From assembly GCF_005943945.1 (NCBI RefSeq), contig NZ_CP040710.1:817001-881000 (forward strand): a stretch of 64,000 nucleotides of DNA, written 5' to 3'. A program made the position numbers and the translations under genes. Positions 10,984 to 11,797 of this stretch are shown in pieces; the stretch's first letter is position 1, and each line of letters starts with the position of its first letter. The notes beneath the pieces were generated by a model. That model ran no database searches and had not been told where the DNA came from. It worked only from the letters and a program-made list of their open reading frames with translations. The stretch comes from Aggregatimonas sangjinii. Lineage in GTDB: Bacteria; Bacteroidota; Bacteroidia; Flavobacteriales; Flavobacteriaceae.

Positions 10984-11208
10984 CAAAAACATGGAAAAGT
11001 TTGATCTTTTCTAGGTTTTTAAATTACTGAATTGATGGAGGGCCAAGAGGTTCGTCCCGAATGAAAAGGGAGCACTTCCTTTGTTCGTTCAAATACTGAA
11101 AGAAAGTTCGTGTTAATCAGTTTTGTAGAAGACTGTTTAAAATTAAATGTCGATCGATATTTAGGATTGTACGAACAAGCGTTCATTAAAATATTGAATT
11201 ACCAAATT

Positions 11209-11307
11209 GGGGAGATACTCAAGCGGCCAACGAGGGTCCGCCTGGGGCGGATAAATCTGCTGACTATGTCTTGGCAGGTTCCCCCGAAGCTTCGGGGCTG
11301 CTCTCCC
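11209..11307 (+). pseudogene. tRNA-Tyr pseudo-copy 1 with two hairpin inserts
   Basis: The first 28 bases match tRNA-Tyr. The next seven bases, the 5' side of the anticodon arm, are replaced by a 15-base hairpin (TCCGCC/GGCGGA). The T-loop is replaced by a 16-base palindrome (CCCCGAAGCTTCGGGG). Acceptor-stem ends remain largely pairable. It cannot present a normal anticodon arm. Confidence 0.88.
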
Positions 11308-11377
11308 GAAGACCCAGCGATTATCGTGGGAATAGTATTGAGCGAAGAAGTTCATTAAAATATTGAATTACCAAATT

Positions 11378-11476
11378 GGGGAGATACTCAAGCGGCCAAC
11401 GATGGTCCGCCTGGGGCGGATAAATCTGCTGACTATGTCTTGGCAGGTTCCCCCGAAGCTTCGGGGCTGCTCTCCC
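11378..11476 (+). pseudogene. tRNA-Tyr pseudo-copy 2 with two hairpin inserts
   Basis: It has the same structure as the copy 169 bases upstream, with the two hairpins at the same positions. It differs from that copy by GATGG instead of GAGGG before the first hairpin. It shares the CTATGTCTTGG variant with copy 1. Confidence 0.88.
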
Positions 11477-11546
11477 GAAGACCCAGCGATTATCGTGGGA
11501 ATAGTATTGAGCGAAGAAGTTCATTAAAATATTGTAATACCAAATT

Positions 11547-11645
11547 GGGGAGATACTCAAGCGGCCAACGAGGGTCCGCCTGAGGCGGATAAATCTGCTG
11601 ACTACGTCTTCGCAGGTTCCCCCGAAGCTTCGGGGCTGCTCTCCC
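11547..11645 (+). pseudogene. tRNA-Tyr pseudo-copy 3 with two hairpin inserts
   Basis: It is closest to the functional gene: it keeps CTACGTCTTCGCAGG exactly. The anticodon-arm hairpin has loop TGA instead of TGG, and the T-loop palindrome is unchanged. Confidence 0.88.
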
Positions 11646-11715
11646 GAAGACCCAGCGATTATCGTGGGAATAGTATTGAGCGAAGAAGTTCATTAAAATA
11701 TTGTAATACCAAATT

Positions 11716-11797
11716 GGGGAGATACTCAAGCGGCCAACGAGGGCAGACTGTAAATCTGCTGACTACGTCTTCGCAGGTTCGAATCCTGCTCTCCCCA
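11716..11797 (+). tRNA. tRNA-Tyr(GTA)
   Basis: An 82-base class II tRNA with a long variable arm. The acceptor GGGGAGA pairs with TCTCCCC, discriminator A. The anticodon stem GCAGA/TCTGC has loop CTGTAAA with anticodon GTA. The T-arm GCAGG TTCGAAT CCTGC is intact. It is the only intact copy in the array and stands in register after three hairpin-carrying copies. Confidence 0.95.

Follow-up and report, generated by a model that had tools for sequence, protein, structure and literature searches.

Hairpin-bearing tRNA-Tyr copies of Aggregatimonas sangjinii and a class of tRNA-anchored GIY-YIG units in Bacteroidota to which they may belong

The tyrT repeats of Escherichia coli (rtT RNA) are tandem units that lie 3' of tRNA-Tyr and contain the tRNA 3' end; we know of no T-loop hairpin and no nuclease in them. 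Rickettsia palindromic elements (RPEs) are short palindromes, recurrent at many loci, which occupy in-frame positions within protein genes as well as other sites, and homing endonucleases of the SegB type carry a separate DNA-binding region besides the catalytic domain. We compare these systems with a locus of the flavobacterium Aggregatimonas sangjinii, contained in a stretch of 64,000 nucleotides (the window; 817001-881000 in a single-contig genome of 4.72 Mb), where three tandem tRNA-Tyr copies interrupted by hairpins precede an intact tRNA-Tyr gene. The comparison includes SegB of phage T6, a GIY-YIG homing enzyme (PMC13096335) that cuts tRNA genes with a preference for RAWTSGAAC (23 of 83 sites), also cuts sites in the phage's own tRNA genes and, with recombination, is needed for the tandem amplification of tRNA-Tyr together with segB. 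Judging from sequence comparison, we lean slightly towards reading the window units as members, lacking the open reading frame (ORF), of a tRNA-homing GIY-YIG element class that occurs in many Bacteroidota and is often found in tandem.

The array consists of three 169-bp units on the forward strand, at 11181..11349, 11350..11518 and 11519..11687, each repeating the arrangement of the first: the tRNA-Tyr 5' flank, a hairpin-bearing tRNA-Tyr copy and a spacer. An earlier note on this DNA had placed them in register ahead of the intact gene, and the unit alignment bears this out. Units 1 and 2 differ by 1 mismatch, units 2 and 3 by 6 and units 1 and 3 by 5. The copies themselves (11209..11309, 11378..11478 and 11547..11647) differ from the intact tRNA-Tyr(GTA) at 11716..11797, which stands in the same register on the same strand, at 3, 4 and 1 positions respectively, when the two replaced segments are set aside. 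The first replacement is as the note had it: in all three copies seven bases of the anticodon arm, CAGACTG, give way to a 15-base perfect hairpin, TCCGCC-TGG/TGA-GGCGGA (TCCGCCTGRGGCGGA), in the form TCCGCCTGGGGCGGA in copies 1 and 2 (11237..11251 and 11406-11420) and TCCGCCTGAGGCGGA in copy 3 (11575-11589). The second is the 16-base palindrome CCCCGAAGCTTCGGGG (11282..11297, 11451-11466 and 11620-11635). It had been described as replacing the T-loop; the palindrome is there, with the TTC of the loop retained, and what it replaces is GAATC, the four last T-loop bases and the first base of the 3' T-stem. The stems had been judged largely able to pair, yet the copies are not tRNA-like for a covariance model: with the threshold relaxed to E≤10 the Rfam tRNA model still leaves all three unmatched, the intact gene scoring 55.6 bits, and ARAGORN calls none of them. 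We thus reject functional extra tRNAs.

Further copies, beyond those described earlier, lie downstream on the forward strand. One is a 3'-only tRNA-Tyr copy at 11844..11884 with TCCCGACGCTTCGGGA (11856-11871) in its T-loop. Two more are 3' copies of tRNA-Trp (intact gene 13466-13538), at 13570..13612 and 13655..13697, which share a different palindrome, TCCCGAGCGCAGTCGAGGGA, the first at its T-loop (13577-13596 and 13662-13681).

In other genera the exact T-loop pattern leads to a fuller arrangement, in which tRNA-Phe is followed by a small ORF and then by a hairpin-bearing tRNA-Phe 3' piece. A complete unit comprises a duplicated tRNA end (either the 3' end with its terminator or the 5' end), a minimal GIY-YIG gene and a further, short piece of that tRNA, interrupted by a hairpin. 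All six proteins of complete units that were tested match PF01541, are 81-94 aa long and are matched by no NCBIfam model. Among 45 aligned proteins Y14, G16, R24 and E62, which we take to be catalytic, are invariant throughout (45/45), as befits a GIY-YIG domain of the SegB type. In units of the 5' type the final codons and the stop fall within the following tRNA gene (...KKMLEWRNW and stop in tRNA-Leu, ...NNIDLGD and stop in tRNA-Ala). As with SegB and the T-even free-standing GIY-YIG homing endonucleases, a GIY-YIG protein is found beside tRNA genes (PMC13096335, PMC2988022). There are two further likenesses: tandem amplification of a tRNA with its nuclease is known for SegB, and the complement of its motif, GTTCSAWTY, is fitted on the opposite strand by the T-loop region of the intact A. 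sangjinii tRNA-Tyr, GTTCGAATC (PMC13096335). Unlike SegB, the units are chromosomal in Bacteroidota, the six proteins are short and the tRNA ends are duplicated and accompanied by a hairpin.

Within the A. sangjinii genome PF01541 matches at 17 places, 13 of which are small ORFs. For seven of the 13 the distance to a tRNA gene or the tmRNA gene is at most 500 bp, and an eighth, at 662 bp, belongs to the same array as others. These eight are associated with tRNA-Leu(CAA) (three in tandem, the one at 662 bp being the farthest), tRNA-Met (two in tandem), tRNA-Asn, tRNA-Ala and tmRNA; counted by locus, 5 of 10 are linked to a tRNA or the tmRNA (P about 1e-8). A GIY-YIG ORF beside tmRNA occurs in two species of the genus, being intact and on a very long tree branch in A. 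sangjinii (3126774-3126968; L138) and interrupted by two internal stops in G002 (L248).

The linkage recurs widely. We scanned one genome per species for 84,980 species with an alignment of four proteins, and the best 80 of 140 matches gave 79 loci. The query proteins had been picked for tRNA adjacency, the scan itself being blind to tRNAs, and at least one locus (L145, with a Phe-type protein of Croceitalea dokdonensis, 100% identical to the first query) comes from the species of a query. A tRNA lies within 500 bp at 63 of the 79 loci, so that, as for SegB, the gene stands by its presumed target; at 59 the ORF is 3' of the tRNA and at 4 the tRNA is on the far side only. Three further loci have a tRNA farther off and 13 have none, 7 of these with less than 300 bp of upstream sequence. 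An anchored tRNA piece follows the ORF within 250 bp at 58 of the 79, a few of them (such as L206, L210 and L212) at a doubtful place. Among the 21 loci without such a piece in that interval, L215, L216 and L221 have a tRNA and are real misses. The tRNA-linked unit class is real and widely distributed. As many as 40 of the 58 pieces share one T-loop layout of 19 bases, TTC (38) or CTC (2) followed by a 16-base hairpin; in 39 of these hairpins the 6-bp stem is perfect, and just 9 are palindromic over all 16 bases. Their pairing is conserved: in the 40 pieces (29 distinct), stem cells are paired in 99.4% against 94.3% after shuffling, and double-change cells number 14 against 4.8, neither equalled in 500 shuffles. 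Mutational hairpin correction could be an alternative cause of the excess. The precise sequence is rare, since the exact T-loop pattern GTTCYCCCGANNCTTCGGGR has matches in only 6 of 199 genomes of the family.

The sequences also suggest that GIY-YIG protein lineage tends to track tRNA isotype. On a quick protein tree (89 rows, 73 of them labelled, 91 columns and many unresolved forks), isotype needs 15 changes against 28.2 after shuffling, with 0 of 200 shuffles as low. Five rows received their Phe label from the tRNA piece of a locus without an intact tRNA, and L167, L169, L200, L214 and L223, which have a stop or fewer than 70 residues, were left out. Leu(TAA) forms one clade, Phe needs 3 changes over 44 rows, and Met labels are weakly clustered (10 of 500 shuffles equally low).

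Elsewhere in the A. sangjinii genome units without an ORF resemble those of the window. Seven 82-bp units lie 3' of tRNA-Val(GAC) and three units lie 3' of tRNA-Leu(GAG), each with a T-stem, a palindrome that stands in for the greater part of the T-loop, and a 3' acceptor strand; the tRNA-Leu(GAG) units have in addition a terminator-like hairpin and a T-rich tail. In 5' copies the hairpin is placed in the D-loop or at the D/anticodon junction for Leu(CAA) and in the D-arm for Pro(GGG). Met copies have it in the anticodon arm and Asn copies in the variable region, and some copies, for example of Arg(ACG), have no perfect hairpin in our survey. A second tRNA-Asn-like gene (4036576-4036661; L062) is called by ARAGORN, scores 32.8 bits and has the hairpin CCCCGATAGCTATCGGGG in its variable region; it is probably a dead copy that annotation would score as a tRNA.

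We extended the survey to Christiangramia gaetbulicola and Moheibacter lacus, taking ARAGORN-called tRNA and tmRNA genes at places found by the tRNA model and counting as an extra copy any 13 identical bases within 1.2 kb. Nearby extra partial copies accompany 15 of 38 genes in A. sangjinii, 11 of 41 in C. gaetbulicola (where two identical tRNA-Val genes share the same two blocks and are counted twice) and 7 of 34 in M. lacus, compared with 5/183, 3/193 and 0/160 when tRNAs are paired with the wrong flanks. Many of these copies hold a hairpin, frequently at the T-loop, and GIY-YIG ORFs are found in tRNA neighbourhoods of all three genomes.

At the tRNA-Tyr locus itself, copies are present or absent between related species. 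A 3' copy with a T-loop hairpin, in the interval between tRNA-Tyr and tRNA-Gly, is seen in three of seven same-genus species (one copy in G001, one in G002 before the contig ends and two in G004; none in G003, G005, G006 and G007) and in one other genus. None of the seven has upstream copies over the 670 bp examined, and the 3 x 169 array is found only in A. sangjinii. A search for an ORF-bearing tRNA-Tyr unit in 397 genomes of the family found none: an exact tRNA-Tyr pattern, which misses some copies (those of G001, G002 and G004 are slightly different), matched only A. sangjinii and one genome with an ORF-less unit. The main bridge from arrays of the window type to complete units is given by other isotypes. 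At tRNA-Leu(GAG), G004 has GIY-YIG-bearing tandem units, the last one shortened, where A. sangjinii has ORF-less units. At tRNA-Met(CAT), G006 has a GIY-YIG unit with an anticodon-arm hairpin and A. sangjinii an ORF-less unit with a T-loop hairpin; since these hairpins are at different arms, the two are possibly different elements.

These observations suggest a mechanism, for which cutting, mobility and a role of the hairpin are drawn from sequence and from analogy with SegB. The GIY-YIG protein would act as a nuclease and cleave the tRNA gene at the hairpin-marked site or close to it; because the hairpin starts right after GTTC in Phe, Tyr, Val(GAC) and similar copies, and in view of the SegB motif, we infer cutting there. 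Recombinational repair of the break would insert the unit, with the duplicated tRNA end keeping one tRNA functional, and further cutting and recombination would produce tandem arrays. The hairpin might serve as shield, as substrate or as a signal in RNA; in this scheme it would spare the extra tRNA piece from cutting or bar it from tRNA activity. Arrays like that of the window would either have lost the nuclease gene or have been spread by a nuclease acting from elsewhere. To the broader form of this proposal we would give even chances: that Bacteroidota carry minimal mobile elements made of a GIY-YIG nuclease of about 85 aa, a spare tRNA or tmRNA half and a hairpin marking the cut, with lineages specialised by isotype and arm and with nuclease-less relics as arrays. 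If true, genes recognised by nothing more specific than the general GIY-YIG model would be tRNA- or tmRNA-linked selfish elements of many Bacteroidota, sparing the host in an unusual way by bringing the missing half of an essential gene, and tandem tRNA debris would have a testable account. Proteins of about 85 residues, which may differ in the sites that they prefer (T-loop, anticodon arm, variable region and D-arm), would then be a cellular counterpart of SegB, the phage enzyme for which tRNA amplification was described in 2026.

Several results weigh against this proposal. No GIY-YIG ORF adjoins tRNA-Tyr in any genome examined, and the window array therefore joins the class through shared anatomy only. 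Phe carriers with an ARAGORN-called tRNA keep an intact T-loop in 35 of 35 cases (TTCGATT 25, TTCGATC 9, TTCGAAC 1); 25 intact Phe genes fit the SegB motif exactly, so that immunity by destruction of the target fails to explain why the gene is spared. The six examined proteins have only 81-94 aa and, unlike SegB-type enzymes, show no separate DNA-binding region. The other five small GIY-YIG ORFs of A. sangjinii have no tRNA within 1.5 kb (0/5), and the four of these that the tree includes do not cluster together apart from the rest. On the same tree Val and Asp labels are unclustered and Asn needs 4 changes over 8 rows. Counted by base pair, only 2 of 6 pairs in the common hairpin show a double change, which 65 of 500 shuffles equalled. 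Nine of 25 sites of the main palindrome (see below) lie away from tRNAs, one of these being a tRNA-Asp remnant. Finally, the 3' end of a protein gene, presumably dnaK from its C-terminal sequence, resembles the tRNA units: it is partly duplicated twice, with the palindrome TCCCGAGCGCAGTCGAAGGA between the copies (2148831-2148897; L088, L089).

The alternative that survives best, which we nevertheless consider unlikely, makes the hairpin the substrate and not a shield: a structure-specific GIY-YIG enzyme of the UPF0213 or Slx1 kind would nick extruded hairpins, tRNA arms would be hit as inverted repeats and the breaks would drive duplication. The predicted structure of one protein of 91 residues, a single compact domain (mean predicted local distance difference test score 93.2) that is nearly all GIY-YIG match with two short C-terminal helices, fits such an enzyme. 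So do its relatives. UPF0213 proteins, similar in size and domain, are the best solved sequence relatives (E 3e-5; SLX1 is not significant at E 0.19), and a fold search gives weak matches to UPF0213, Slx1-Slx4 and I-TevI (best E 0.13). The hairpin sequence also varies by element (CCCCGA.., TCCGCC.., CCCGATAGCTATCGGG, TCAAGAC..GTCTTGA) while its hairpin nature is kept. A cuttable hairpin in every unit should however make arrays unstable, yet seven near-identical tRNA-Val(GAC) units persist, and the tendency of the hairpin to an isotype-specific position favours recognition of sequence. Unlike UPF0213 proteins, unit proteins are placed by their tRNA, a placement that the five unlinked small ORFs lack.

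Somewhat less probable again is that the hairpin acts in RNA, by ending or stabilising the GIY-YIG mRNA, or by blocking the processing of a read-through tRNA piece or its trapping of tRNA enzymes. In 38 of the 40 Phe-type layouts the T-stem ahead of the hairpin begins 6-22 nt past the matched end of the ORF, as a function in the transcript would have it, and the pairing is largely preserved through double changes. Mutation bias alone, without selection, can also keep hairpins perfect, a similar hairpin stands upstream of the ORF in 5'-type units, and the hairpin is retained in arrays that have no ORF.

The earlier note had proposed a free palindromic element targeting tRNA loops and comparable to RPEs; we find this, or a relative of repetitive extragenic palindromes (REPs), improbable as the explanation. 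Its own refuting condition, hairpins found at no other tRNA loop, does not hold: such hairpins are present at the tRNA loops of further loci and genomes, and several palindrome families recur in tRNA copies, with some sites elsewhere. Like RPEs these are short palindromes at many loci, but unlike them they sit chiefly in dead tRNA pieces and in units partly equipped with a GIY-YIG gene, in extra copies and at a place that tends to be constant for an isotype. With 40 of the 58 anchored copies in the nuclease set having a single 19-base layout, the hairpin seems to be a constant component of some larger unit. The main palindrome, searched with a pattern derived from the tRNA copies themselves (YCCCGANNCTTCGGGR), has 25 sites in the 4.7-Mb genome, its reversed control having none. 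Sixteen sites, among which the tandem copies are not independent, are no more than 1.3 kb from a tRNA, a zone that for all 38 tRNAs makes up 2.1% of the genome. A seventeenth is a tRNA-Asp 3' remnant with palindrome and terminator at 3549522 (L032, L039), about 7 kb from the intact tRNA-Asp. Thus 17 of 25 sites belong to the surroundings of tRNA genes or to a tRNA remnant, in place of the in-frame location inside protein genes that marks RPEs. A generic high-copy REP was rejected: at up to 2 mismatches the class B pattern TCCTGAGCGCAGTCGAAGGA occurs just 10 times in the genome, four of these sites being in tRNA copies and two immediately 5' of tRNA-Pro, in 5' copies.

That tRNAs were simply duplicated and then decayed, their hairpins arising by chance, or that the assembly is wrong, is very improbable. 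The copies are indeed tandem and degenerate, but hairpins (GC-rich, stem of at least 5) accompany 40 of the 57 copy blocks, compared with 284 of 3000 controls, each a 100-base segment, which rejects chance, although certain blocks exceed the controls in length and certain hairpins are terminators, as at tRNA-Phe in Christiangramia; the layout recurs across genera, and in a single-contig genome the copies have diverged by substitutions and have like copies in relatives.

Other origins and precedents were also considered. Like the tyrT repeats, the window has tandem units with tRNA-Tyr sequence, but Rfam rtT has no match in the window at its gathering score, nor at E≤10 over 11150-11920. A phage origin was rejected, since tblastn with two of the proteins against 50,697 phage records returned nothing at E≤1e-5. 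In the literature searched, which takes in few subscription papers and so is weak evidence of novelty, we found no account of chromosomal GIY-YIG genes next to tRNAs in Bacteroidota; a 2006 GIY-YIG survey (PMC1564403), checked by its terms, has no instance of 'Bacteroid' and uses 'tRNA' at three unrelated places.

Of the remaining eight sites of the main palindrome, five belong to the copies of a single unrelated repeat (185955 and 186038, 340424, 1614005 and 2210286) and three stand alone (688832, 1626097 and 4195849). The repeat has the terminal inverted repeat AGAGACTGTTTGGAAATAT with CCCCGAGCCTTCGGGG or a close variant inside, and looks like a small non-autonomous transposon. In the window, the tRNA cluster runs in the order tRNA-Thr, tRNA-Tyr, tRNA-Gly, tRNA-Thr, a gene that is presumably tuf, and tRNA-Trp. 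Just 5' of the cluster lies a tyrosine recombinase ORF (9553-10440), apparently XerC, which shows no sign of involvement.
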